From the NCBI GenBank assembly GCA_963681505.1, contig OY811992.1:62001-126000 (forward strand): a stretch of DNA of 64,000 nucleotides. Reading direction: 5' to 3'. The DNA is from Eunapius fragilis. Lineage: Eukaryota; Porifera; Demospongiae; Spongillida; Spongillidae. Shown here piece after piece: positions 2,901-63,210 of the stretch (position 1 is its first letter; the number at the start of each line of letters is the position of its first letter). The notes under the pieces were generated by a model, which was not told the origin of the DNA, did not search any database, and saw nothing but the letters and a program-made list of their open reading frames with translations. The position numbers were made by a program, and so were the translations under genes.

Positions 2901-4160
2901 TACTGCTATCTTCCAAGTGTGCAGTGGTTTACTCATATTGCATGTCTCATCAACACCTCGATGCTAACATTGTCATTATTTCCCATAGAGATGTATGCGT
3001 GGTTTCCCATAGGAATGTATGGGTGGGAACCTACTTTTGAATTGCTTGGTTAACCCATACATGAGCAGGTATACTCGGGGTGGCATTTAAAACAGATAGA
3101 GGAATGGTTACTGCTATCTTACATGTGAGCAGTGGTTTGCTCCTATTGCATGTCTCATCAACACCTCGATGCTAAGATAGTTATTATTTCCCATAGAGAT
3201 GTATGGGTGGTTTCCCATAGGAATGTGTGGGTGGGAACCTACTTTTGAATAGCTTGGTTAACCCATACCGAAGCAGGTATGCTCTGGGTGGCATTTAAAC
3301 CAGATAAAGGAATGGTTACTGCTATCTTCCATGTGTGCAGTGGTTTGCTCATATTGCATGTCTCATCAACACCTCGATGCTAAGATAGTCATTATTTCCC
3401 ATAGAGATGTATGGGTTGTTTCCCATAAGAATGTATGGGTGGGAATCTACTTTTGAATCGCTTGGTTAACCCATACCAAAGCAGGTATGCTCGGGGTGGC
3501 ATTTAAAATAGATAAAGGAATGGTTACTGCTATCTTCCATGTGTGCAGTGGTTTGCTCATATTTCATGTCTCATCAACACCTCGATGCTAAGATAGTCAA
3601 AAATTTCCCATAGAAATGTATGGGTGGGAACCTACTTTTGAATCGCTTGGTGAACCCATACCAAAGTTGGTATGCTCGGGGTGGCATTTAAAACAGATAG
3701 AGGAATGGTTACTGCTATCTTCCATGTGTGCAGTGGTTTACTCATATAACATGTCTCATCAACACCTCGATGCTAAGATAGTCATTATTTCCCATAGAGT
3801 TGTATGGGTGGTTTCCTATAGGAATGTGTGGGTGGGAACCTACTTTTGAATAGCTTGGTTAACCCATACCGAAGCAGGTATGCTCGGGGTGGCATTTAAA
3901 CCAGATAAAGGAATGGTTACTGCTATCTTCCATGTGTGCAGTGGTTTGCTCATATTGCATGTCTCATCAACACCTCGATGCTAAAATAGTCATTATTTCC
4001 CATAGAGATGTATGGGTGGTTTCCCATAGGAATGTATGGGTGGGAACCTACTTTTGAATCGCTTGGTTAACCCATACCGAAGCAGGTATGCTCGGGGTGG
4101 CATTTAAACCAGATAAAGGAATGGTTACTGCTATCTTCCATGTGTGCAGTGGTTTGCTCA

Positions 4161-47600: not shown

Positions 47601-49483
47601 GGATTGGTAGTGGGATTGGTAGTGGGATTGGTAGTGGGATTGGTAGTGGGATTGGTAGTGGGATTGGTAGTGGGATTGGTAGTGGGATTGGTAGTGGGAT
47701 TGGTAGTGGGATTGGTAGTGGGATTGGTAGTGGGATTGGTAATGGGATTGGTAGTGGGATTGGTAGTGGTAGTGGTAGTGGGATTGTTAGTGGAATTGGT
47801 GATGGGATTGCTAGTGGGATTGGTAGTTTGATTGGTAGTGGGATTGGTAGTGGGATTGGAAGTGGTAGTGGTAGTGGAATTGGTAGTGGGATTGGTATTG
47901 GGATTGGTAGTGGGATTGGTAGTGGCATTGGTAATGGGATTGGTAGTGGGATTGGTAGTGGGATTTGTAGTGGAAATTCTAGTGGTAGTGGGATTGGTAG
48001 GGGAATTGGTAGTGGGATTGGTAGTGGGATTGGTAGTGGGATTGGTAGTGGGATAAGTAGTGGGATTGGTAGTGGTAGTGGTAGTGGGATTGGTAGTGGT
48101 AGTGGTAGTGGTAGTGGTAGTGGGATTGGTAGTGGGATTGGTAGTGGGATTGGTAGTGGGATTGGTAGTGGGATTGGTAGTGGGATTGGTAGTGGGATTG
48201 GTAGTGGGATTGGTAGTGGGATTGGTAGTGGGATTGGTAGTGGGATTGGTAGTGGGATTGGTAGTGGTAGTGGTAGTGGGATTGGTAGTGGTAGTGGTAG
48301 TGGTAGTGGTAGTGGGATTGGTAGTGGGATTGGTAGTTGGATTGGTAGTGGGATTGGTAGTGGGATTGGTAGTGGGATTGGTAGTGGGATTGGTTGTGGG
48401 ATTGGTAGTGGGATTGGTAGTGGGATTGGTAGTGGGATTGGTAGAGGGATTGGTAGTGGGATTGGTAGTGGGATTGGTAGTGGGATTGGTAGTGGTAGTG
48501 GTAGTGGTAGTGGGATTGGTAGTGGGATTGGTAGTGGGATTGGTAGTGGGATTGGTAGTGGGATTGGTAGTGGGATTGGTTGTGGGATTGGTAGTGGTAG
48601 TGGTAGTGGTAGTGGGATTGGTAGTGGGATTGGTAGTGGGATTGGTAGTGGGATTGGTAGTGGGATTGGTAGTGGGATTGGGAGTGGGATTGGTAGTGGG
48701 ATTGGTAGTGGGATTGGTAGTGGGATTGGTAGTGGGATTGGTAGTGGGATTGGTAGTGGGATTGGTAGTGGGATTGGTAGTGGGATTGGTAGTGGGATTG
48801 GTAGTGGGATTGGTAGGGGGATTGGTAGTGGGATTGGTAGTGGGATTGGTAGTGGGATTGGTAGTGGGATTGGTAGTGGGATTGGTAGTGGGATTGGTAG
48901 TGGGATTGGTAGTGGGATTGGTAGTGGGATTGGTTGTGGTAGTGGTAGTGGGATTGGTAGTGGGATTGGTAGTGGGATTGGTAGTGGGATTGGTAATGGG
49001 ATTGGTAGTGGGATTGGTAGTGGGATTGGTAGTGGGATTGGTAGTGGGATTGGTAGTGGGATTGGTAGTGGGATTGGTAGTGGGATTGGTAGTGGGATTG
49101 GTAGTGGGATTGGTAGTGGGATTGGTAGTGGGATTGGTAGTGGGATTGGTAGTGGGATTGGTAGTGGGATTGGTAGTGGTAGTGGGATTGGTAGTGGGAT
49201 TGGTAGTGGGATTGGTAGTGGGATTGGTAGTGGGATTGGTAGTGGGATTGGTAGTGGGATTGGTAGTGGGATTGGTAGTGGGATTGGTAGTGGGATTGGT
49301 AGTGGGATTGGTAGTGGTAGTGGTAGTGGTAGTGGGATTGGTAGTGGGATTGGTAATGGGATTGGTAGTGGGATTGGTAGTGGGATTGGTAGTGGGATTG
49401 GTAGTGGGATTGGTAGTGGGATTGGTAGTGGGATTGGTAGTGGGATTGGTAGAGGGATTGGTAGTGGTAATTGAAGTGGGATT
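41597..49483 (+). repeat. G-rich 12 bp minisatellite (GGTAGT/GGGATT), main block
   Basis: About 7.9 kb of almost pure hexamer repeat. The dominant unit is GGTAGTGGGATT, with runs of two to four GGTAGT between GGGATT units. The plus strand is almost free of C. Recurrent variants include GGTTGT, GGTAATGGG, GGAAGT and GGAAATTCTAG. Lack of stop codons in the repeat creates open frames of several hundred to about 1600 codons in several frames and on both strands. These are composition effects, not genes. Runs of GG and GGG every 4-5 bases could form G-quadruplexes on this strand. Confidence 0.97.
45393..49483 (+). repeat. Higher-order repeat in the minisatellite, period 2580 bp
   Basis: GGAAATTCTAG with GGTAGGGGAATTGG occurs at about 43080, 45392 and 47972. 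The following pattern of hexamer variants, including GGGATAAGTAG, repeats at 2312 bp and then 2580 bp spacing. The marker TAGTTTGATTGG at 45244 and 47824 also gives 2580 bp. The second copy is cut short by the first 62 bp block. Confidence 0.75.
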
Positions 49484-49732
49484 GCGGGATCAATCTGTAA
49501 CAATCCAGTGCAATTCGGCGCGCTGCGACGGATTGGTGCACTTTTGCGGGATCAATCTGTAACAATTTGGCGCAATTCGGCGCGCAGCGACGGATTGCAG
49601 CACTTTCGCGGAACCAATCTGTAACAATTCGGCGCGCTACAACGGATTGCTGCACTTTCGCCGGATCAATCTGCAACAATTAGGGGCAATTCGGCGCACC
49701 AAGACCGATTGCTTCACTATGGCGTGATCAAT
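49484..49732 (+). repeat. 62 bp repeat block 1, forward arm
   Basis: Four units and the start of a fifth of a GC-richer repeat unlike the minisatellite. Typical parts are GCGGGATCAATCTGTAACAA, CAATTCGGCGCGCTGCGACG and GATTGCAGCACTTTC. Unit spacings are 62, 62, 52 and 62 bp; the third unit lacks 10 bp. The arm stops at GCGTGATCAAT, where the direction flips. Confidence 0.9.
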
Positions 49733-50049
49733 TTGCAGATTGATCCTGCGAAAGTGCAGCAATCCGTCTCAGCGCGCCGAATTGCGCCGAATTGTTGCAG
49801 ATTGATCCCGCCATAGTGAAGCAATCGGTCTCAGCGCGCCGATTTGCCACGAATTGTTGCAGATTGATCCGGCGATAGTGCAGCATTCCGTTGTAGTGCG
49901 CCGAATTGTTACAGATTGGTTCCGCGAAAGTGCTGCAATCCGTCGCAGCGCGCCGAATTGTGCCAAATTGTTACAGATTGATCCCGCAAAAATGCACCAA
50001 TCCGTCGCAGCGCGCCGAATTGCGCTGGATTGTTACAGATTGATCCCGC
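49733..50049 (-). repeat. 62 bp repeat block 1, inverted arm
   Basis: Read on the minus strand this contains units 1 to 5 and the start of unit 6, ending in TTGATCAC at the hinge. Its variants (GGAATGCTGCACTATC, AATTCGTGGCAAATCGG) match the direct blocks at 50608 and 54324 rather than its own forward partner. The arm therefore came from another block by inversion. With the forward arm it forms a fold-back. Confidence 0.9.
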
Positions 50050-50160
50050 AATCCCACTTCAATTACCACTACCAATCCCACTACCAATCCCACTCCCCAT
50101 CCCACTCCCCATCCCATTACCACTACCACTACCACTACCAATCCCACTACCAATCCCACT
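50050..50160 (-). repeat. Inverted C-rich minisatellite next to block 1
   Basis: Minus-strand copy of the G-rich hexamer repeat (CCACTACCAATCCCACTACC on this strand), including the variant ACTCCCCATCCC twice. It ends at CCCACT, and the G-rich strand resumes with AGTGGTAGTGGG, a second hinge with a 6-base loop. Confidence 0.9.
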
Positions 50161-50607
50161 AGTGGTAGTGGGATTGGTAGTGGGATTGGTAGTGGGATTG
50201 ATAGTGGTAGTGGGATTGGTAGTGGGATTGGTAGTGGGATTGGTAGTGGGATTGGTAGTGGTAGTGGTAGTGGTAGTGGGATTGTTAGGGGAATTGGTAG
50301 TGGGATTGGTAGTGGGATTGGTAGTGGTAGTGGTATTGGTAGTGGGATTGGTAGTGGGATTGGTAGTGGTAGTGGGATTGGTAGTGGGATTGGTAGTGGG
50401 ATTGGTAGTGGGATTGGTAGTGGTATTGGTAGTGGGATTGGTAGTGGGATTGGTAGTGGGATTGGTAGTGGTAGTGGTAGTGGTAGTGGGATTGGTAGTG
50501 GGATTGGTAGTGGGATTGGTAGTGGGATTGGTAGAGGTAGTGGTAGTGGTATTGGGATTGGTAGTGGGATTGGTAGTGGTAGTGGTAGTGGGATTGGTAG
50601 TGGGATT
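50161..50607 (+). repeat. G-rich minisatellite segment
   Basis: Same GGTAGT/GGGATT hexamer repeat as the main block, with variants GGGATTGATAGT and GGTAGTGGTATT. It matches 58151-58597. Confidence 0.93.
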
Positions 50608-51090
50608 GCGGGATCAATCTGTAACAATCCAGCGCAATTCGGCGCGCTGCGACTGATTGGTGCATTTTTGCGAAATAAATCTGTAACAATTTGGCACAAT
50701 TCGGCGCGCTGCGACGGATTGCAGCACTTTCGCGGAACCAATCTGTAACAATTCGGCGCACTACAACGGAATGCTGCACTATCGCCGGATCAATCTGCAA
50801 CAATTCGTGGCAAATCGGCGTGCTGAGACCGATTGCTTCACTATGGCGGGATCAATCTGCAACAATTCGGCGCAATTCGGCGCGCTGAGACGGATTGCTG
50901 CACTTTCGCAGGATCAATCTGCAATATGTTATTCGGCACAATTCGGCGCGCTGCGACCGATTGCTGCACTGTCTTTGGTCCAATCTGCAAAAATTCAGCA
51001 CAATTCGACACGCTGCGACGGAATCCTGCACTTTCACAGGATCAATCTGTAACAATTTGGGGCAATTAGGCGTGCCTTGACCAATTGCTT
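50608..51090 (+). repeat. 62 bp repeat block 2 (direct, 8 units)
   Basis: Eight units of about 62, 62, 52, 62, 62, 66, 62 and 55 bp, all forward. Unit 6 has an extra 4 bp (GCAATATGTTATTCGG), unit 7 starts TTTGGTCCAATCTGC, and unit 8 is cut at GACCAATTGCTT, after which AGTGGTAGTG resumes. The same order and cut point occur in the other direct blocks. Confidence 0.92.
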
Positions 51091-52671
51091 AGTGGTAGTG
51101 CGATTGGTAGCGGTAGTGGTAGTGGGATTGGTAGTGGGATTGGTAGTAGTATTGGTAGTGGTAGTGGGATTTGTAGTGGGATTGGTAGTGGGATTGGTAG
51201 TGGGATTGGTAGTGGGATTGGTAGTGGGATTGGTAGTGGTAGTGGTAGTGGTAGTAGGATTGTTAGGGGAATTGGTAGTGGTAGTGGTAGTGGGATTGGT
51301 AGTAGCAGTGGTAGTGGGATTGGTAGTGGGATTGGTAGTGGTAGTGGTAGTGGTAGTGGTATTGGTAGTGGGATTGGTAGTGGGATTGGTAGTGGTAGTG
51401 GGATTGGTAGTGGGATTGGTAGTGGGATTGGTAGTGGGATTGGTAGTGGTAGTGGTAGTGGGATTGGTAGTGGGATTGGTAGTGGGATTGGTAGTGGTAG
51501 TGGTAGTGGTAGTGGGATTGGTAGTGGGATTGGTAGTGGGATTGGTAGTGGGATTGGTAGAGGTAGTGGTAGTGGTAGTGGGATTGGTAGTGGGATTGGT
51601 AGTGGTAGTGGTAGTGGGATTGGTAGTGGGATTGGTAGTGGGATTGGTAGTGGAAATTATAGTGGTAGTGGGATTGGTAGGGGACTTGGTAGTGTTAGTG
51701 GTAGTAGGATTGTAAGTGGTAGTGGTAATGGGATTGGTAGTGGGATTGGTAGTGGTAGTGGTAGTGGTAGTGGGATTGGTAGTGGGATTGGTATTGGGAT
51801 TGGTAGTGGTAGTGGGATTGGTAGTGGGATTGGTATTGGGATTGGTAGTGGGATAGGTGGTGGGATTGGTAGTGGGATTGGTAGTGGGATTGTTAGTGGT
51901 AGTGGTAGTGGGATTGGTAGTGGGATTGGTAGTGGGATTGGTAGTGGGAATGGTAGTGGTAGTGGTAGTGGGATTGGTAGTGGGATTGGTAGTTGTAGTG
52001 GTAGTGGTAGTGGGATTGGTAGTGGGATTGGTAGTGGGATTGGTAGTGGTAGTGGGATTGGTAGTGGGATTGGTAGTGGGATTGGTAGTGGGATTGGTTG
52101 TGGGATTGGTAGTGGGATTGGTAGTGGTAGTGGTAGTGGTAGTGGGATTGTTAGGGGAATTGGTAGTGGTAGTGGTAGTGGGATTGGTAGTGGTAGTGGT
52201 AGTGGGATTGGTAGTGGGATTGCTAGTGGTAGTGGTAGTGGTAGTGGTATTGGTAGTGGGATTGGTAGTGGGATTGGTAGTGGTAGTGGGATTGGTAGTG
52301 GGATTAGTAGTGGGATTGGTAGTGGGATTGGTAGTGGTAGTGGTAGTGGGATTGGTAGTGGGATTGGTAGTGGGATTGGTAGTGGTAGTGGTAGTGGTAG
52401 TGGGATTGGTAGTGGGATTGGTAGTGGGTTTGGTAGTAGTAGTGGGATTGGTAGTGGGATTGGTAGTGGGATTGGTAGTGGGATTGGTAGTGGTAGTGGT
52501 AGTGGGATTCGTAGTGGGATTGGTAGTGGGATTGGTAGTGGGATTGGTAGTGGGATTGGTAGTGGGATTGGTAGTGGTAGTGGTAGTGGGATTAGTAGTG
52601 GTAGTGGTAGTGGTAGTGGGATTGGTAGTGGGATTGGTAGTGGGATTGGTAGTGGTAATTGAAGTGGGATT
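51091..52671 (+). repeat. G-rich minisatellite segment
   Basis: Hexamer repeat of about 1.6 kb with more multi-GGTAGT runs than the main block. It matches 59081-60661 at 7990 bp offset. No other structure is seen. Confidence 0.93.
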
Positions 52672-53237
52672 GCGGGATCAATCTGTAACAATCCAGTGCA
52701 ATTCGGCGCGCTGCGACGGATTGGTGCACTTTTGCGGGATCAATCTGTAACAATTTGGCGCAATTCGGCGCGCAGCGACGGATTGCAGCACTTTCGCGGA
52801 ACCAATCTGTAACAATTCGGCGCGCTACAACGGATTGCTGCACTATCGCCGGATCAATCTACAACAATTAGGGGCAATTCGGCGCACTAAGACCGATTGC
52901 TTCACTATGGCGTGATCAATTTGCAGATTGATCCTGCGAAAGTGCAGCAATCTGTCTCAGCGCGCCGAATTGCGCCGAATTGTTGCAGATTGATCCCGCC
53001 ATAGTGAAGCAATCGGTCTCAGCGCGCCGATTTGCCACGAATTGTTGCAGATTGATCCGACGATAGTGCAGCATTCCGTTGTAGTGCGCCGAATTGTTAC
53101 AGATTGGTTCTGCGAAAGTGCTGCAATCCGTCGCAGCGCGCCGAATTGTGCCAAATTGTTACAGATTGATCCCGCAAAAATGCACCAATCCGTCGCAGCG
53201 CGCCGAATTGCGCTGGATTGTTACAGATTGATACCGC
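52672..53237. repeat. 62 bp repeat block 3 with inverted arm
   Basis: Forward arm 52672-52920 and inverted arm 52921-53237, with the same hinge (GCGTGATCAAT then TTGCAGATTGATCC) as block 1. Point differences from block 1 include GATCAATCTACAAC in unit 4 and GATTGATACCGC at the end. Confidence 0.9.
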
Positions 53238-53342
53238 AATCCCACTTCAAATACCACTACCAATCCCACTACCAATCCCACTCCCCATCCCACTCCCCAT
53301 CCCACTACCACTACCACTACCAATCCCACTACCAATCCCACT
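53238..53342 (-). repeat. Inverted C-rich minisatellite next to block 3
   Basis: Same arrangement as 50050-50160 but one hexamer shorter (105 versus 111 bp), followed by the same hinge into the G-rich strand. Confidence 0.88.
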
Positions 53343-54323
53343 AGTGGTAGTGGGATTGGTAGTGGGATTGGTAGTGGTAGTGGGATTGGTAGTGGGATTT
53401 GTAGTGGGATTGGTAGTGGGATTGGTAGTGGTAGTGGTAGTGGTAGTGGGATTGGTAGTGGGATTGGTAGTGGTAGTGGTAGTGGGATTGGTAGTGGGAT
53501 TGGTAGTGGGATTGGTAGTGGAAATTTTAGTGGTAGTGGGATTGGTAGGGGAATTGGTAGTGGTAGTGGTAGTGGGATTGTAAGTGGTAGTGGTAATGGG
53601 ATTGGTAGTGGGATTGGTAGTGGTAGTAGTAGTGGTAGTGGGATTGGTAGTGGGATTGGTATTGGGATTGGTAGTGGTAGTGGGATTGGTAGTGGGATTG
53701 GTATTGGGATTGGTAGTGGGATAGGTGGTGGGATTGGTAGTGGGATTGGTAGTGGGATTGGTAGTGGTAGTGGTAGTGGGATTGGTAGTGGGATTGGTAG
53801 TGGGATTGGTAGTGGGATTGGTAGTGGTAGTGGTAGTGGGATTGGTAGTGGGATTGGTAGTAGTAGTGGTAGTGGTAGTGGGATTGGTAGTGGGATTGGT
53901 AGTGGGATTGGTAGTGGTAGTGGGATTGGTAGTGGGATTGGTAGTGGGATTGGTAGTGGGATTGGTAGTGGGATTGGTAGTGGGATTGGTAGTGGGATTG
54001 GTAGTGGGATTGGTAGTGGTAGTGGGATTGGTAGTGGGATTGGTAGTGGGATTGGTAGTGGGATTGGTAGTGGTAGTGGGATTGGTAGTGGGATTGGTAG
54101 TGGGATTGGTAGTGGGATTGGTAGTGGTAGTGGTAGTGGGATTGGTAGTGAGATTGGTAGTGGGATTGGTAGTGGTAGTGGTAGTGGTAGTGGGATTGGT
54201 AGTGGGATTGGTAGTGGGATTGGTAGTGGGATTGGTAGTGGGATTGGTAGAGGTAGTGGTAGTCGTAGTGGGATTGGTAGTGGGATTGGTAGTGGTAGTG
54301 GTAGTGGGATTGGTAGTGGGATT
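53343..54323 (+). repeat. G-rich minisatellite segment
   Basis: Hexamer repeat with GGAAATTTTAG near 53520 and GGGATAGGTGG near 53720 as recurrent variants. It matches 61333-62320 apart from the indels in the later copy. Confidence 0.93.
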
Positions 54324-54806
54324 GCGGGATCAATCTGTAACAATCCAGCGCAATTCAGCGCTCTGCGACGGATTGGTGCATTTTCGCGGGATCAATCTGT
54401 AACAATTTGGCACAATTCGGCGCGCTGCGACGGATTGCAGCACTTTCGCGGAACCAATCTGTAACAATTCTGCGCACTACAACGGAATGCTGCACTATCG
54501 CCGGATCAATCTGCAACAATTCGTGGCAAATCGGCGCGCTGAGACCGATTGCTTCACTATGGCGGGATCAATCTGTGACAATTCGGCGCAATTCGGCGCG
54601 CTGAGACGGATTGCTGCACTTTCGCAGGATCAATCTGCAATATGTTATTCGGCACAATTCGGCGCGCTGCGACTGATTGCTGCACTGTCTTTGGTCCAAT
54701 CTGCAAAAATTCAGCACAATTCGGCACGCTGCGACGGATTCCTGCACTTTCACAGGATCAATCTGTAACAATTTGGGGCAATTCGGCGTGCCGTGACCAA
54801 TTGCTT
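54324..54806 (+). repeat. 62 bp repeat block 4 (direct, 8 units)
   Basis: Same eight-unit order and length (483 bp) as block 2. Distinguishing changes are AATTCAGCGCTCTGC in unit 1, AATTCTGCGCAC in unit 3 and GATCAATCTGTGAC in unit 5. Confidence 0.92.
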
Positions 54807-56323
54807 AGTGGTAGTGGGATTGGTAGTGGTAGTGGTAGTGGGATTGGTAGTGGGATTGGTAGTAGTAGTGGTAGTGGTAGTGGGATTGGTAGTGGGATTG
54901 GTAGTGGGATTGGTAGTGGTAGTGGGATTGGTAGTGGGATTGGTAGTGGGATTGGTAGTGGGATTGGTAGTGGGATTGGTAGTGGTAGTGGTAGTGGTAG
55001 TGGGATTGTTAGGGGAATTGGTAGTGGTAGTGGTAGTGGGATTGGTAGTGGTAGTGGTAGTGGAATTGGTAGTGGGATTGGTAGTGGTAGTGGTAGTGGT
55101 AGTGGTATTGGTAGTGGGATTGGTAGTGGGATTGGTAGTGGTAGTGGGATTGGTAGTGGGATTGGTAGTGGGATTGGTAGTGGGATTGGTAGTGGTAGTG
55201 GTAGTGGGATTGGTAGTGGGATTGGTAGTGGGATTGGTAGTGGTAGTGGTAGTGGTAGTGGGATTGGTAGTGGGATTGGTAGTGGGATTGGTAGTAGGAT
55301 TGGTAGAGGTAGTCGTAGTGGTAGTGGGATTGGTAGTGGGATTGGTAGTGGTAGTGGTAGTGGGATTGGTAGTGGGATTGGTAGTGGGATTGGTAGTGGA
55401 AATGTTAGTGGTAGTGGGATTGGTAGGGGAATTGGTAGTGGTAGTGGTAGTGGGATTGTAAGTGCTAGTGGTAGTGGGATTGGTAGTGGGATTGGTAGTG
55501 GTAGTGGTAGTGGTAGTGGGATTGGTAGTGGGATTGGTATTGGGATTGGTAGTGGTAGTGGGATTGGTAGTGGGATTGGTATTGGGATTGGTAGTGGGAT
55601 AGGTGGTGGGATTGGTAGTGGGATTGGTAGTGGGATTGGTAGTGGTAGTGGTAGTGGGATTGGTAGTGGGATTGGTAGTGGGATTGGTAGTGGGATTGGT
55701 AGTGGTAGTGGTAGTGGGATTGGTAGTGGGATTGGTAGTAGTAGTAGTGGTAGTGGTAGTGGGATTGGTAGTGGGATTGGTAGTGGGATTGGTAGTGGTA
55801 GTGGGATTGGTAGTGGGATTGGTAGTGGGATTGGTAGTGGGATTGGTAGTGGGATTGGTTGTGGGATTGGTAGTGGGATTGGTAGTGGTAGTGGTAGTGG
55901 TAGTGGGATTGTTAGGGGAATTGGTAGTGGTAGTGGTAGTGGGATTGGTAGTGGTAGTGGTAGTGGTAGTGGTAGTGGGATTGTAAGTGGTAGTGGTAGT
56001 GGGATTGGTAGTGGGATTGGTAGTGGTAGTGGTAGTGGTAGTGGGATTGGTAGTGGGATTGGTAGTGGTAGTGGGATTGGTAGTGGGATTGGTAGTGGGA
56101 ATGTAGTGGGATTGGTGGTGGGATTGGTAGTGGGATTGGTAGTGGGATTGGTAGTGGTAGTGGTAGTGGGATTGGTAGAGGGATTGGTAGTGGGATTGGT
56201 AGTGGGATTGGTAGTGGGATTGGTAGTGGTAGTGGTAGTGGGATTGGTAGTGGTAGTGGTAGTGGTAGTGGGATTGGTAGTGGGATTGGTAGTGGGATTG
56301 GTAGTGGTAATTGAAGTGGGATT
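54807..56323 (+). repeat. G-rich minisatellite segment
   Basis: Hexamer repeat. A local irregularity at about 56097 (GGGAATGTAGTGGGATTGG) shifts the hexamer phase. Confidence 0.93.
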
Positions 56324-56806
56324 GCGGGATCAATCTGTAACAATCCAGTGCAATTCGGCGCGCTGCGACGGATTGGTGCTCTTTTGCGGGATTAATCTGT
56401 AACAATTTGGCGCAATTCGGCGCGCAGCGACGGATTGCAGCACTTTCGCGGAACCAATCTGTAACAATTCGGCGCGCTACAACGGATTGCTGCACTATCG
56501 CCGGATCAATCTGCAACAATTAGGGGCAATTCGGCGCACTAAGACCGATTGCTTCACTATGGCGTGATCAATCTGCAACAATTCGGCGCAATACGGCGCG
56601 CTGAGATGGATTGCTGCACTTTCGCAGGATCAATCTGCAATATGTTATTCGGCACAATTCGGCGCGCTGCGACCTATTGCTAATCTTTCTTTGGTCCAAT
56701 CTGCAAAAATTTAGCACAATTCGGCACGCTGCGACGGATTCCTGCCCTTTCTCAGGATCAATCTGTAACAATTTGGGGCAATTCGGCGCGCCGAGACCGA
56801 TTGCTT
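56324..56806 (+). repeat. 62 bp repeat block 5 (direct, 8 units)
   Basis: Units 1-4 carry the variants of the forward arms of blocks 1 and 3 (CCAGTGCAATTCGG, AATTAGGGGCAATTCGG, CTATGGCGTGATCAAT), but the block continues forward with CTGCAAC instead of flipping. It looks like the uninverted parent form of the fold-back blocks. Confidence 0.9.
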
Positions 56807-57473
56807 AGTGGTAGTGGGATTGGTAGTGGTAGTGGTAGTGGGATTGGTAGTGGGATTGGTATAGTAGTAGTGGTAGTGGTAGTGGGATTGGTATTGGGAT
56901 TGGTAGTGGGATTGGTATAGTAGTAGTGGTAGTGGTAGTGGGATTGGTATTGGGATTGGTAGTGGGATTGGTAGTGGGATTGGTAATGGGATTGGTAGTG
57001 GGATTGGTAGTGGGATTGGTAGTGGGATTGGTAGTGGGATTGGTAGTGGGATTGGTAGTGGGATTGGTAGTGGGATTGGTAGTGGGATTGGTAGTGGGAT
57101 TGGTAGTGGGATTGGTAGTGGGATTGGTAGTGGGATTGGTAGTGGGATTGGTAGTGGGATTGGTAGTGGTAGTGGGATTGGTAGTGGGATTGGTAGTGGG
57201 ATTGGTAGTGGGATTGGTAGTGGGATTGGTAGTGGGATTGGTAGTGGGATTGGTAGTGGGATTGGTAGTGGGATTGGTAGTGGGATTGGTAGTGGGATTG
57301 GTAGTGGTAGTGGTAGTGGTAGTGGGATTGGTAGTGGGATTGGTAATGGGATTGGTAGTGGGATTGGTAGTGGGATTGGTAGTGGGATTGGTAGTGGGAT
57401 TGGTAGTGGGATTGGTAGTGGGATTGGTAGTGGGATTGGTAGAGGGATTGGTAGTGGTAATTGAAGTGGGATT
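56807..57473 (+). repeat. G-rich minisatellite segment
   Basis: Starts with two copies of an irregular motif GGTATAGTAGTAGTGG (about 56856 and 56912), then a long, regular 12 bp repeat like 48955-49483. Confidence 0.93.
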
Positions 57474-58039
57474 GCGGGATCAATCTGTAACAATCCAGTG
57501 CAATTCGGCGCGCTGCGACGGATTGGTGCACTTTTGCGGGATCAATCTGTAACAATTTGGCGCAATTCGGCGCGCAGCGACGGATTGCAGCACTTTCGCG
57601 GAACCAATCTGTAACAATTCGGCGCGCTACAACGGATTGCTGCACTTTCGCCGGATCAATCTGCAACAATTAGGGGCAATTCGGCGCACCAAGACCGATT
57701 GCTTCACTATGGCGTGATCAATTTGCAGATTGATCCTGCGAAAGTGCAGCAATCCGTCTCAGCGCGCCGAATTGCGCCGAATTGTTGCAGATTGATCCCG
57801 CCATAGTGAAGCAATCGGTCTCAGCGCGCCGATTTGCCACGAATTGTTGCAGATTGATCCGGCGATAGTGCAGCATTCCGTTGTAGTGCGCCGAATTGTT
57901 ACAGATTGGTTCCGCGAAAGTGCTGCAATCCGTCGCAGCGCGCCGAATTGTGCCAAATTGTTACAGATTGATCCCGCAAAAATGCACCAATCCGTCGCAG
58001 CGCGCCGAATTGCGCTGGATTGTTACAGATTGATCCCGC
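57474..58039. repeat. 62 bp repeat block 6 with inverted arm
   Basis: Copy of block 1 at 7990 bp offset, with the hinge at 57722/57723. No difference from block 1 was noticed in the parts compared. Confidence 0.9.
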
Positions 58040-58150
58040 AATCCCACTTCAATTACCACTACCAATCCCACTACCAATCCCACTCCCCATCCCACTCCCC
58101 ATCCCATTACCACTACCACTACCACTACCAATCCCACTACCAATCCCACT
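58040..58150 (-). repeat. Inverted C-rich minisatellite next to block 6
   Basis: Copy of 50050-50160. Confidence 0.88.
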
Positions 58151-58597
58151 AGTGGTAGTGGGATTGGTAGTGGGATTGGTAGTGGGATTGATAGTGGTAG
58201 TGGGATTGGTAGTGGGATTGGTAGTGGGATTGGTAGTGGGATTGGTAGTGGTAGTGGTAGTGGTAGTGGGATTGTTAGGGGAATTGGTAGTGGGATTGGT
58301 AGTGGGATTGGTAGTGGTAGTGGTATTGGTAGTGGGATTGGTAGTGGGATTGGTAGTGGTAGTGGGATTGGTAGTGGGATTGGTAGTGGGATTGGTAGTG
58401 GGATTGGTAGTGGTATTGGTAGTGGGATTGGTAGTGGGATTGGTAGTGGGATTGGTAGTGGTAGTGGTAGTGGTAGTGGGATTGGTAGTGGGATTGGTAG
58501 TGGGATTGGTAGTGGGATTGGTAGAGGTAGTGGTAGTGGTATTGGGATTGGTAGTGGGATTGGTAGTGGTAGTGGTAGTGGGATTGGTAGTGGGATT
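58151..58597 (+). repeat. G-rich minisatellite segment
   Basis: Copy of 50161-50607. Confidence 0.93.
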
Positions 58598-59080
58598 GCG
58601 GGATCAATCTGTAACAATCCAGCGCAATTCGGCGCGCTGCGACTGATTGGTGCATTTTTGCGAAATAAATCTGTAACAATTTGGCACAATTCGGCGCGCT
58701 GCGACGGATTGCAGCACTTTCGCGGAACCAATCTGTAACAATTCGGCGCACTACAACGGAATGCTGCACTATCGCCGGATCAATCTGCAACAATTCGTGG
58801 CAAATCGGCGTGCTGAGACCGATTGCTTCACTATGGCGGGATCAATCTGCAACAATTCGGCGCAATTCGGCGCGCTGAGACGGATTGCTGCACTTTCGCA
58901 GGATCAATCTGCAATATGTTATTCGGCACAATTCGGCGCGCTGCGACCGATTGCTGCACTGTCTTTGGTCCAATCTGCAAACATTCAGCACAATTCGACA
59001 CGCTGCGACGGAATCCTGCACTTTCACAGGATCAATCTGTAACAATTTGGGGCAATTAGGCGTGCCTTGACCAATTGCTT
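58598..59080 (+). repeat. 62 bp repeat block 7 (direct, 8 units)
   Basis: Copy of block 2. One visible change is CAAACATTCAGC at 58978 versus CAAAAATTCAGC at 50988. Confidence 0.92.
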
Positions 59081-60661
59081 AGTGGTAGTGCGATTGGTAG
59101 CGGTAGTGGTAGTGGGATTGGTAGTGGGATTGGTAGTAGTATTGGTAGTGGTAGTGGGATTTGTAGTGGGATTGGTAGTGGGATTGGTAGTGGGATTGGT
59201 AGTGGGATTGGTAGTGGGATTGGTAGTGGTAGTGGTAGTGGTAGTAGGATTGTTAGGGGAATTGGTAGTGGTAGTGGTAGTGGGATTGGTAGTAGCAGTG
59301 GTAGTGGGATTGGTAGTGGGATTGGTAGTGGTAGTGGTAGTGGTAGTGGTATTGGTAGTGGGATTGGTAGTGGGATTGGTAGTGGTAGTGGGATTGGTAG
59401 TGGGATTGGTAGTGGGATTGGTAGTGGGATTGGTAGTGGTAGTGGTAGTGGGATTGGTAGTGGGATTGGTAGTGGGATTGGTAGTGGTAGTGGTAGTGGT
59501 AGTGGGATTGGTAGTGGGATTGGTAGTGGGATTGGTAGTGGGATTGGTAGAGGTAGTGGTAGTGGTAGTGGGATTGGTAGTGGGATTGGTAGTGGTAGTG
59601 GTAGTGGGATTGGTAGTGGGATTGGTAGTGGGATTGGTAGTGGAAATTATAGTGGTAGTGGGATTGGTAGGGGACTTGGTAGTGGTAGTGGTAGTAGGAT
59701 TGTAAGTGGTAGTGGTAATGGGATTGGTAGTGGGATTGGTAGTGGTAGTGGTAGTGGTAGTGGGATTGGTAGTGGGATTGGTATTGGGATTGGTAGTGGT
59801 AGTGGGATTGGTAGTGGGATTGGTATTGGGATTGGTAGTGGGATAGGTGGTGGGATTGGTAGTGGGATTGGTAGTGGGATTGTTAGTGGTAGTGGTAGTG
59901 GGATTGGTAGTGGGATTGGTAGTGGGATTGGTAGTGGGATTGGTAGTGGTAGTGGTAGTGGGATTGGTAGTGGGATTGGTAGTTGTAGTGGTAGTGGTAG
60001 TGGGATTGGTAGTGGGATTGGTAGTGGGATTGGTAGTGGTAGTGGGATTGGTAGTGGGATTGGTAGTGGGATTGGTAGTGGGATTGGTTGTGGGATTGGT
60101 AGTGGGATTGGTAGTGGTAGTGGTAGTGGTAGTGGGATTGTTAGGGGAATTGGTAGTGGTAGTGGTAGTGGGATTGGTAGTGGTAGTGGTAGTGGGATTG
60201 GTAGTGGGATTGCTAGTGGTAGTGGTAGTGGTAGTGGTATTGGTAGTGGGATTGGTAGTGGGATTGGTAGTGGTAGTGGGATTGGTAGTGGGATTAGTAG
60301 TGGGATTGGTAGTGGGATTGGTAGTGGTAGTGGTAGTGGGATTGGTAGTGGGATTGGTAGTGGGATTGGTAGTGGTAGTGGTAGTGGTAGTGGGATTGGT
60401 AGTGGGATTGGTAGTGGGTTTGGTAGTAGTAGTGGGATTGGTAGTGGGATTGGTAGTGGGATTGGTAGTGGGATTGGTAGTGGTAGTGGTAGTGGGATTC
60501 GTAGTGGGATTGGTAGTGGGATTGGTAGTGGGATTGGTAGTGGGATTGGTAGTGGGATTGGTAGTGGTAGTGGTAGTGGGATTAGTAGTGGTAGTGGTAG
60601 TGGTAGTGGGATTGGTAGTGGGATTGGTAGTGGGATTGGTAGTGGTAATTGAAGTGGGATT
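59081..60661 (+). repeat. G-rich minisatellite segment
   Basis: Copy of 51091-52671 with a few base changes. Confidence 0.93.
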
Positions 60662-61227
60662 GCGGGATCAATCTGTAACAATCCAGTGCAATTCGGCGCG
60701 CTGCGACGGATTGGTGCACTTTTGCGGGATCAATCTGTAACAATTTGGCGCAATTCGGCGCGCAGCGACGGATTGCAGCACTTTCGCGGAACCAATCTGT
60801 AACAATTCGGCGCGCTACAACGGATTGCTGCACTATCGCCGGATCAATCTACAACAATTAGGGGCAATTCGGCGCACTAAGACCGATTGCTTCACTATGG
60901 CGTGATCAATTTGCAGATTGATCCTGCGAAAGTGCAGCAATCTGTCTCAGCGCGCCGAATTGCGCCGAATTGTTGCAGATTGATCCCGCCATAGTGAAGC
61001 AATCGGTCTCAGCACGCCGATTTGCCACGAATTGTTGCAGATTGATCCGACGATAGTGCAGCATTCCGTTGTAGTGCGCCGAATTGTTACAGATTGGTTC
61101 TGCGAAAGTGCTGCAATCCGTCGCAGCGCGCCGAATTGTGCCAAATTGTTACAGATTGATCCCGCAAAAATGCACCAATCCGTCGCAGCGCGCCGAATTG
61201 CGCTGGATTGTTACAGATTGATACCGC
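60662..61227. repeat. 62 bp repeat block 8 with inverted arm
   Basis: Copy of block 3, with the hinge at 60910/60911. A visible difference is CAGCACGCC near 61010 versus CAGCGCGCC near 53020. Confidence 0.9.
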
Positions 61228-61332
61228 AATCCCACTTCAAATACCACTACCAATCCCACTACCAATCCCACTCCCCATCCCACTCCCCATCCCACTACCA
61301 CTACCACTACCAATCCCACTACCAATCCCACT
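61228..61332 (-). repeat. Inverted C-rich minisatellite next to block 8
   Basis: Copy of 53238-53342. Confidence 0.88.
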
Positions 61333-62320
61333 AGTGGTAGTGGGATTGGTAGTGGGATTGGTAGTGGTAGTGGGATTGGTAGTGGGATTTGTAGTGGGAT
61401 TGGTAGTGGGATTGGTAGTGGTAGTGGTAGTGGTAGTGGGATTGGTAGTGGGATTGGTAGTGGTAGTGGTAGTGGGATTGGTAGTGGGATTGGTAGTGGG
61501 ATTGGTAGTGGAAATTTTAGTGGTAGTGGGATTGGTAGGGGAATTGGTAGTGGTAGTGGTAGTGGGATTGTAAGTGGTAGTGGTAATGGGATTGGTAGTG
61601 GGATTGGTAGTGGTAGTAGTAGTGGTAGTGGGATTGGTAGTGGGATTGGTATTGGGATTGGTAGTGGTAGTGGGATTGGTAGTGGGATTGGTATTGGGAT
61701 TGGTAGTGGGATAGGTGGTGGGATTGGTAGTGGGATTGGTAGTTGGGATTGGTAGTGGTAGTGGTAGTGGGGATTGGTAGTGGGATTGGTAGTGGGATTG
61801 GTAGTGGGATTGGTAGTGGTAGTGGTAGTGGGATTGGTAGTGGGATTGGTAGTAGTAGTGGTAGTGGTAGTGGGATTGGTAGTGGGATTGGTAGTGGGAT
61901 TGGTAGTGGTAGTGGGATTGGTAGTGGGATTGGTAGTGGGATTGGTAGTGGGATTGGTAGTGGGATTGGTAGTGGGATTGGTAGTGGATTGGTAGTGGGA
62001 TTGGTAGTGGTAGTGGGATTGGTAGTGGGATTGGTAGTGGGATTGGTAGTGGGATTGGTAGTGGTAGTGGGATTGGTAGTGGGATTGGTAGTGGGATTGG
62101 TAGTGGGATTGGTAGTGGTAGTGGTAGTGGGATTGGTAGTGAGATTGGTAGTGGGATTGGTAGTGGTAGTGGTAGTGGTAGTGGTAGTGGGATTGGTAGT
62201 GGGATTGGTAGTGGGATTGGTAGTGGGATTGGTAGTGGGATTGGTAGAGGTAGTGGTAGTCGTAGTGGGATTGGTAGTGGGATTGGTAGTGGTAGTGGTA
62301 GTGGGATTGGTAGTGGGATT
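61333..62320 (+). repeat. G-rich minisatellite segment
   Basis: Copy of 53343-54323. It includes the first of the clustered single-base indels: AGTTGGGATT at 61741, GTGGGGATTGG near 61767 and GTAGTGGATTGG near 61981. Confidence 0.92.
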
Positions 62321-63210
62321 GCGGGATCAATCTGTAACAATCCAGCGCAATTCGGCGCGCTGCGACGGATTGGTGCATTTTCGCGGGATCAATCTGTAAC
62401 AATTTGGCACAATTCGGCGCGCTGCGACGGATTGCAGCACTTTCGCGGAAACCAATCTGTAAACAATTTCTGCGCACTACAACGGAATGCTGCACTATCG
62501 CCGGATCAATCTGCAACAATTCGTGGCAAATCGGCGCGCTGAGACCGATTGCTTCACTATGGCGGGATCAATCTGTGACAATTCGGCGCAATTCGGCGCG
62601 CTGAGACGGATTGCTGCACTTTCGCAGGATCAATCTGCAATATGTTATTCGGCACAATTCGGCGCGCTGCGGACTGATTGCTGCACTGTCTTTGGTCCAA
62701 TCTGCAAAAATTCAGCACAATTCGGCACGCTGCGACGGATTCCTGCACTTTCACAGGATCAATCTGTAACAATTTGGGGCAATTCGGCGTGCCGTGACCA
62801 ATTGCTTAGTGGTAGTGGGATTGGTAGTGGTAGTGGGTAGTGGGATTGGTAGTGGGATTGGTAGTAGTAGTGGTAGTGGTAGTGGGGATTGGTAGTGGGA
62901 TTGGTAGTGGGATTGGTAGTGGTAGTGGGATTGGTAGTGGGATTGGTAGTGGGATTGGGTAGTGGGATTGGTAGTGGGATTGGTAGTGGTAGTGGTAGTG
63001 GTAAGTGGGATTGTTAGGGGAATTGGTAGTGGTAGTGGTAGTGGGATTGGTAGTGGTAGTGGTAGTGGGAATTGGTAGTGGGATTTGGGTAGTGGTAGTG
63101 GTAGTGGTAGTGGTATTGGGTAGTGGGATTGGTAGTGGGATTGGTAGTGGTAGTGGGATTGGTAGTGGGATTGGTAGTGGGATTGGTAGTGGGAATTGGT
63201 AGTGGTTAGT
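61741..63210. other. Cluster of single-base indels, probable consensus error
   Basis: About 16 single-base indels relative to the 7990 bp upstream copy fall in about 1.5 kb. Most extend a run of G, A or T by one base. Flanking sequence on both sides keeps the exact pattern. Some could be real mutations. Confidence 0.7.
62321..62807 (+). repeat. 62 bp repeat block 9 (direct, 8 units)
   Basis: Copy of block 4 but 487 instead of 483 bp. The four extra bases are at GGAAACC, GTAAACAA, ATTTCTGC (62448-62472) and GCGGACTG (about 62669). Confidence 0.92.

Follow-up and report, generated by a model that had tools for sequence, protein, structure and literature searches.

A chimeric fold-back in satellite-block arrays of the sponge Eunapius fragilis most likely derives from a single inverse join

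The fold-back found in a satellite array of Eunapius fragilis is built of two arms that belong to two different lineages of the same repeat block. Its two joins are identical in nine copies, the copies are confined to two chromosomes, and the inverted arm carries a marker of its donor. Most likely, a chimeric inverse join was made once, either by template switching or by end-joining, and was then amplified and exchanged between chromosomes 13 and 22. The kind of event is already known. The fold-back is a clear new case of it, in which both parental lineages can be named; no new kind of system is involved. What it preserves is a clear, naturally arisen inverse join within satellite DNA, and the minisatellite beside it marks the donor class. 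The two joins serve as genome-wide unique markers, and tandem duplication of the product and its exchange between two chromosomes can be traced. Such joins can be used to trace sequence exchange among the repeat arrays of sponges.

The window, which is the whole stretch of 64,000 nucleotides that was analysed, very probably corresponds to positions 62001-126000 of chromosome 22 (C22:62001-126000) of E. fragilis; positions given without a contig name are window positions. The region is rich in repeats and lies close to one end of the chromosome of this freshwater sponge. The genome searched comprises 218,937,333 bases in 24 contigs (219 Mb). The published description of the genome gives 218.91 Mb, 23 chromosomes and a mitochondrion of 28.5 kb (PMC12616128). 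From position 1 to about 15,872 the window is occupied by an array of alternating 208- and 185-bp units. This array is adjoined by a 185-bp satellite (15873-41597; 139 copies, 25.7 kb, 94% matches). Beyond 41,597 the window contains the 12-bp minisatellite GTGGGATTGGTA and C-containing blocks of about 490 bp, which are built from subunits of about 62 bp. The 25-base core of the subunit occurs at 3,367 places in the genome at up to three mismatches (2,022 forward, 1,345 reverse; controls 0). Among the 100 matches listed, 74 lie less than 0.6 Mb from a scaffold end, and the remaining 26 are on C2 and C9. Blocks in direct orientation are present in the fetched stretches of C2, C3, C6, C7, C13, C15 and C22. 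A literature search restricted to sponge satellites and E. fragilis repeats yielded no published account of this satellite.

The first copy of the fold-back is located at 49484-50161. Its forward arm (49484..49737, forward strand) corresponds to positions 1-254 of an A-type block, the type represented by block 5 of the window. The inverted arm (49734..50049, reverse strand) corresponds to positions 316-1 of a B-type block, the type of blocks 2 and 4. The two arms meet at the hinge, or join 1, GATCAATTTGCAGATTGATC (49726..49745), the sides of which have TGCA in common. The inverted arm is followed by 112 bp of inverted minisatellite from upstream of the donor B block (50050..50161, reverse strand), carrying the marker GGGATGGGGAGTGGGATGGGG. 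The inverted minisatellite passes into forward minisatellite at the distal join, or join 2, AATCCCACTAGTGGTAGTGGG (50152..50172) with the overlap TA. The reversed piece therefore measures 428 bp (49734-50161; 316 bp of block and 112 bp of minisatellite); its length is 428 bp in seven copies and 422 bp in two. The original prediction expected the arms to pair over about 250 bp. This holds for the block arms, 49484-49737 and 49796-50049, which are complementary at 94% over 254 nt and enclose a 58-nt loop. The full stem is longer, since the forward minisatellite in front of the forward arm (49375..49483, forward strand) pairs more weakly with the inverted minisatellite and extends the stem to 363 nt at 91% (49375-49737 with 49796-50158). 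Pairing centred on the hinge itself reaches 79% over 121 nt. The junction of forward position 254 with inverted position 316 puts the 20-bp hinge at the edge of the loop. The single-stranded fold of 49484-50049 (566 nt) has an energy of -331 kcal/mol; 100 shuffles of this sequence gave a mean of -106 kcal/mol (sd 5.7), and none was as good. The arms of one copy match each other at 236-239 of 252-254 positions, i.e. they are 93-94% identical and 6-7% different.

The hinge GATCAATTTGCAGATTGATC was found without mismatch at nine places in the 219-Mb genome, four on C22 and five on C13, while the reversed-pattern control gave none. The four places on C22 all lie in the window (49726, 52914, 57716 and 60904). 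The distal join AATCCCACTAGTGGTAGTGGG is present in the same nine copies and at no other place at up to two mismatches (control 0). As joins 1 and 2 occur in identical nine places, a single origin followed by copying and exchange is indicated. The fold-back at 49484 is thus confirmed by the inverted repeat, the single-stranded fold and the two joins in nine copies, and the assumption of one founding event is borne out by both joins being exact in all of them. The number of four sites, given originally, is correct for the window and falls short of the nine in C22 and C13. Fold-back 2 is located at 52672..53354 (forward strand; 683 bp to the end of join 2, hinge 52914-52933, join 2 53334-53354). 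Fold-back 3 (57474..58162, forward strand) equals fold-back 1 across 689 bp with no substitution or gap, and fold-back 4 (60662..61344, forward strand) differs from fold-back 2 by one substitution. The direct blocks between and beyond them, all on the forward strand, are block 2 (50608..51111, B type), block 4 (54324..54813, B type) and block 5 (56324..56813, A type, uninverted across the hinge point), as well as a duplicate of block 2 (58598..59101), identical across the 254 positions compared, and a near-duplicate of block 4 (62321..62814). The stretch 49484..54323 (forward strand) is the first copy of a recent tandem duplication, the second copy of which starts at 57474 at an offset of about 7,990 bp. 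Over the 4.84 kb compared, the two show 4,835 matches, 4 mismatches and 9 gap bases (99.9% identical). The four fold-backs of the window are one pair and its tandem duplicate. The HiFi data of the assembly amount to 184.53 Gb in 18.74 million reads (PMC12616128), from which we calculate a mean read of about 9.8 kb. Given this read length and a contig N50 of 0.49 Mb, the recent duplication on C22 is the part most open to assembly error.

The nine copies (683-689 bp) are 0-15 substitutions apart and comprise eight different sequences. Common sites divide them into two subgroups, each with members on both C13 and C22. The stretch C22:111484-117000 is colinear with C13:204254-198900 at 97.3%, and a segment with both subgroups was therefore passed between the chromosomes. 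Three other orientation switches in the same repeat family were noticed by eye, each of them once among the stretches fetched: a miniature fold-back at the border of a satellite, with arms of 19 nt (C22:29561-30260), a head-to-head block junction (C22:160841-161700, L019) and a forward block running into inverted minisatellite (C2:15999880-16000420, L032).

To assign the arms to lineages, they were compared with 53 direct blocks, each 293 bp or longer, from the fetched stretches of C2, C3, C6, C7, C13, C15 and C22, a set that leaves out shorter, cut and reverse-lying blocks. The forward arm of the first copy matches C22:131727 at 250/254 positions and block 5 at 249/254, as against 234/254 for block 2 and 233 of the 252 aligned for block 4. 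It is thus of block-5 type as predicted, and it falls into the A set in both trees. The inverted arm matches C13:234214 at 314/316 positions and C13:202645 at 313/316. Among the window blocks it is closest to block 2 (50608; 311/316) and block 4 (310/316), followed by block 5 (300/316). The predicted block-2/4 type is therefore right as to lineage, while the minisatellite marker points to a B class found on C13 and C3. A tree was built from the arms of all nine copies (nine forward, nine inverted) and from 43 direct blocks, the ten of the 53 with missing subunits being dropped. Every forward arm falls into the A set of 18 rows (100/98), and every inverted arm into the B set of 28 rows (97/91). 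The tree of arms against direct blocks, which was the check proposed at the outset, hence does not place the arms as nearest neighbours; they lie on opposite sides of the 100/98 branch. One clade for both arms is rejected with a p-AU of 8.45e-07, from a bootstrap that had not fully settled. Each arm set alone as a single clade is not rejected (p 1), and neither forms a strict clade in the free tree. With the hinge columns removed, the A set (99/96), the B set (96/91) and the rejection of a joint clade (p-AU 3.66e-07) persist. Thirteen differences between the arms are fixed in all nine copies. Twelve of them recur when one A direct block is compared with one B direct block, which show 14 differences in all, and the thirteenth is the T in the hinge. 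The fixed differences follow the A/B lines, which means that the arms were different at birth and have never been evened out since.

Block 5 (56324) reads straight through the hinge point, GCGTGATCAATCTGCAACAATTCGG, uninverted as had been stated. The original prediction further placed the inversion or switch at a small palindrome. Direct A blocks read GATCAATCTGCAACAATT at this point, and the two sides of join 1 have only TGCA in common. The 20-bp palindrome of the hinge was therefore absent beforehand and was created by the join, both sides of which end at the subunit motif GATCAATCTGCA. The TGCA overlap of 4 bp is the same on both strands; it would extend to 5 bp (TTGCA) only in the case of an A parent that carried the T beforehand. 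Random inverse joins between one A/B pair, C13:243122 and C13:202645, give an overlap of at least 4 bp in 2.6% and of at least 5 bp in 0.8%. The nearest A blocks have C where the hinge has T (position 250). This T may derive from the B side, because the reversed B block reads ATTGCAGATTG there. In that case the breakpoint would lie just before the T, with no exact overlap; otherwise the T may be a later change. The overlap at join 2 is TA only, 2 bp. The first 400 bases beyond join 2 of five of the nine copies were compared with 40 spacers; in this rapidly changing minisatellite, the best-matching spacer follows a B-type block for two copies, an unclassified block for two and an A-type block for one. 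The rapid change of this minisatellite also defeated the placement of join 2 by alignment. A search for further tail-to-tail joins with a gapped pattern gave no match; the pattern also misses the present hinge, which differs from it at two bases, and is hence uninformative.

The donor of the inverted piece can be narrowed by the marker. As a 44-base pattern in direct orientation with 0-1 mismatch, the marker occurs at 11 places, 8 on C13 and 3 on C3, always 23 bp from a block start; at three mismatches it is spread more widely among the matches listed. The B blocks of the window itself, blocks 2 and 4, have no marker upstream. The attached minisatellite thus points to the marked class of B blocks on C13 and C3 as the source of the inverted arm, away from window blocks 2 and 4. 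The inverted segment of the first copy is colinear with C13:202645 and its upstream minisatellite, without a gap, at 422/428 positions. The runners-up for this copy are marked blocks of C3 and C13 with 415-418 matches (418 for C3 as against 422), and the nearest block on C22 matches at 405 positions, with 11 mismatches and a gap of 12 bases. Of the 53 direct loci, C13:202645 gives the best match to the whole inverted segment in four of the five copies tested; for the copy at C13:201132, C13:253200 ranks first. Truncated blocks of 312 bp, which end three arrays, were tried as donors of the inverted arm and rejected, since they run into different unique sequence and belong to another set of the tree.

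A-type places were searched with CTATGGCGTGATCAATTTGCAAC at up to one mismatch, which gave 16 in the genome. Eight of them are ordinary, with C at position 250 (4 on C13, 4 on C22), six have T (3 on C13, 3 on C3), and two are of another kind (C15, C19). C13 is the likelier birthplace, being the sole chromosome found with both ordinary A and marked B blocks. The fold-back at C13:203689 has C13:202645 as its next block. A marked B block comes next after this fold-back and after the one at C13:205771, and after none of the other seven copies. An uninverted near A block standing directly before a marked B block was sought within 1 kb downstream of the eight ordinary A places and was found at none. 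Five of the six T-variant places, as against none of the eight ordinary ones, have a marked B block 0.7-0.95 kb further on. This arrangement, present on both C13 and C3, probably reflects a higher-order pair of the two kinds of block. The T-variant blocks were at first favoured as the forward parent for this reason, for the T of the hinge and for the grouping of the forward arms with two of them in the tree (96/82). This parent was rejected: the hinge T, which lies inside the join, is the sole site at which the forward arms agree with both T-variants and differ from the seven other A blocks tested, and the forward arm is closer to ordinary A blocks (250/254 as against 245/254). Without the hinge columns, both T-variants fall outside the forward arms and the other A blocks, with a weak support of 83/75. 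Direct blocks of 252 bp and 249 bp on C13, considered as forward arms without inverted arms, proved to be ordinary blocks with inner subunits missing.

We propose, with moderate confidence, that the fold-back is the fossil of one inverse template switch of the four-point type in an array of tandem satellite blocks. Replication would be the cause. Synthesis would have run along an A-type block up to about position 254 (...GATCAATCTGCA). At the self-complementary TGCA it would have changed over to position 316 of a B-type block, on the opposite strand and in the same phase of a later subunit. The B block, possibly a near neighbour, would have been copied backwards through its start and 112 bp of upstream minisatellite, where a switch back to the forward strand of the minisatellite would follow. 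The hairpin-forming A/B chimera, probably born on chromosome 13, would then have been duplicated with the array and passed between the arrays of chromosomes 13 and 22 in a segment of at least 5 kb, and a recent tandem duplication would have given the four copies of the window. The A and B lineages of the arms, the colinear donor, the two joins in the same nine copies and the TGCA argue for this model. The 2-bp overlap at join 2, the hinge T missing from the nearest A blocks and the C3 marked blocks close behind C13:202645 speak against it, and so does the lack of a marked B block within 1 kb after any of the eight ordinary A places.

The main rival is breakage followed by microhomology-mediated end-joining, by which the 428-bp fragment would have been cut out and inserted in reverse after a broken A block, the flanks being lost (deletion-inversion-deletion). 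When the T-variant parent pair was dropped, template switching was for that reason lowered to the moderate standing given above, and end-joining was raised to a possible, though clearly less probable, explanation. The short overlaps TGCA and TA fit it, and so would a breakpoint with zero overlap if the hinge T came from B. It is also in line with the minisatellite past join 2, since in each of the five copies tested the spacers that separate a T-variant A block from a marked B block come 21st or lower among the 40 and are thus not the closest. However, a marked B block stands next after two of the nine fold-backs (C13:205771 and C13:203689), which looks like a retained donor, and the process requires two breaks and two losses. 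Replication error and end-joining leave similar joins, and the present data separate neither from the other.

A different role for the hairpin, as a cause of its own spread, is improbable. The hairpin (254-363 bp) might stall replication forks or be extruded as a cruciform and so drive its own duplication and interchromosomal transfer or, if transcribed, give an array-marking dsRNA. If true, such a self-driving hairpin would explain why nine copies exist here as against the other inverted joins, met once each. An Rfam search with gathering scores over 41500-64000 gave no match, and no function for the fold-back was found in this way.

The ultra-low-input PacBio protocol is PCR-amplified, and palindromic chimeras are known in amplified DNA. 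The reads of the assembly come from an ultra-low-input PacBio library (PMC12616128), and fold-back artefacts have been reported for long reads (PMC6218980, PMC12870357). A self-copied molecule would nevertheless have near-identical arms, whereas those of the fold-back differ by 6-7% along lineage lines; the two joins are common to nine copies, which lie on two chromosomes and comprise eight different sequences, and at less than 0.7 kb the unit is small compared with the mean read of about 9.8 kb. Library artefacts are random and private to single molecules, with near-identical arms, none of which is seen here. On this comparison of sequences we judge the structure to be real, and an artefact of sequencing or assembly to be very unlikely. 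Ordinary recombination between oppositely oriented arrays is still harder to credit. Opposite-oriented blocks do lie within about 20 kb of fold-backs on C22 (e.g. C22:137807) and on C13, but homologous exchange would connect equal positions, while in the fold-back 254 meets 316 and the overlap at join 2 is 2 bp. The two remaining explanations have hardly any probability. In the first, a strand that was broken or still being synthesised folded onto itself and served as its own template. The 58-nt spacer and the short inverted microhomology TGCA fit the pattern of such events (PMC3907307), but the arms would come from one block, whereas the inverted arm is no copy of the forward one and the trees put them in two lineages, and the second join returns the sequence to forward orientation. 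In the second, the fold-back is ancestral, a Foldback-type transposon with inverted repeats of subrepeats, and the direct blocks are its decay products; the long inverted repeats of about 62-bp subrepeats look alike, but direct blocks occur on seven chromosomes and this hinge only on C13 and C22, and both arms nest within direct-block lineages.

Foldback (FB) transposons have inverted arms of short subrepeats. The arms described here are likewise built of subrepeats. Unlike these transposons, which lie at dispersed, unrelated sites, all nine copies are found within two arrays of the same satellite, the C13 and C22 block arrays, and the fold-back derives from direct blocks. Among the closest known events is the short-range, four-point template switch mutation, described as a reverse-complement stretch between two switch points that arises in one event (PMC7954356). 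Similar to these cases, the fold-back contains a gap-free reverse-complement fragment, colinear with one donor, between switch points, is attributable to a single event and may form a hairpin. It differs from the cases given in that source in its donor, a diverged repeat copy, in the 428-bp length of the piece, and in the product, which was amplified in a satellite array and is present on a second chromosome. In hairpin-creating template switching a long stem is likewise obtained from a single event (PMC8794818); in contrast to the cases presented there, the two arms here are drawn from separate repeat lineages, which made the stem imperfect from the outset, and no RNA gene was identified. The human fold-back inverted duplications are described as large and self-copied, with terminal loss (PMC3907307). 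The inverted arms, the single-copy spacer and the inverted microhomology of a few base pairs are shared with them, whereas the present structure is internal, small and of two parents, and has a return join.

Several features of the surroundings were also recorded. The scaffold-end matches of the subunit core that were listed (up to 0.6 Mb) read '-' in 24 of 29 at low coordinates and '+' in 44 of 45 at high coordinates, with exceptions at the low end of C11 and the high end of C8. The low end of C22 (111-133 kb) reads '+', unlike most low scaffold ends, and the first stretch of C22 may be placed backwards or be truly inverted; positions 1-166000 of C22, as fetched, are without N. A repeated module occurs at C22:133.4-139.5 kb, C13:181.4-192.5 kb and C13:265.4-272.8 kb. 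It consists of an array-ending 312-bp truncated block, several kb with a 71-bp tandem repeat, and then opposite-orientation blocks with a 32-bp satellite that carries the palindrome GACTCCTGCAGGAGTC. The module copy at C13:183-190 kb harbours an LTR retrotransposon. Two different LTR retrotransposons with long open gag and pol frames, which by eye we take to be Ty3-like, are located at L020:3254-7998 and L018:1072-5804, and both sit inside or beside block arrays. The mitochondrial contig C24 has a cox1 frame with nine in-frame TGA codons, read as Trp under code 4. Partial cox1-like matches on nuclear scaffolds (C9:9625139-9675257, C11:5693715 and others), most of which have in-frame stops under the standard code, are possible copies of mitochondrial DNA. 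The mitochondrial stretch L047 (C24:17073-21413) contains several short near-perfect hairpins, for example one with 21-nt arms at 95% and an 18-nt perfect palindrome.
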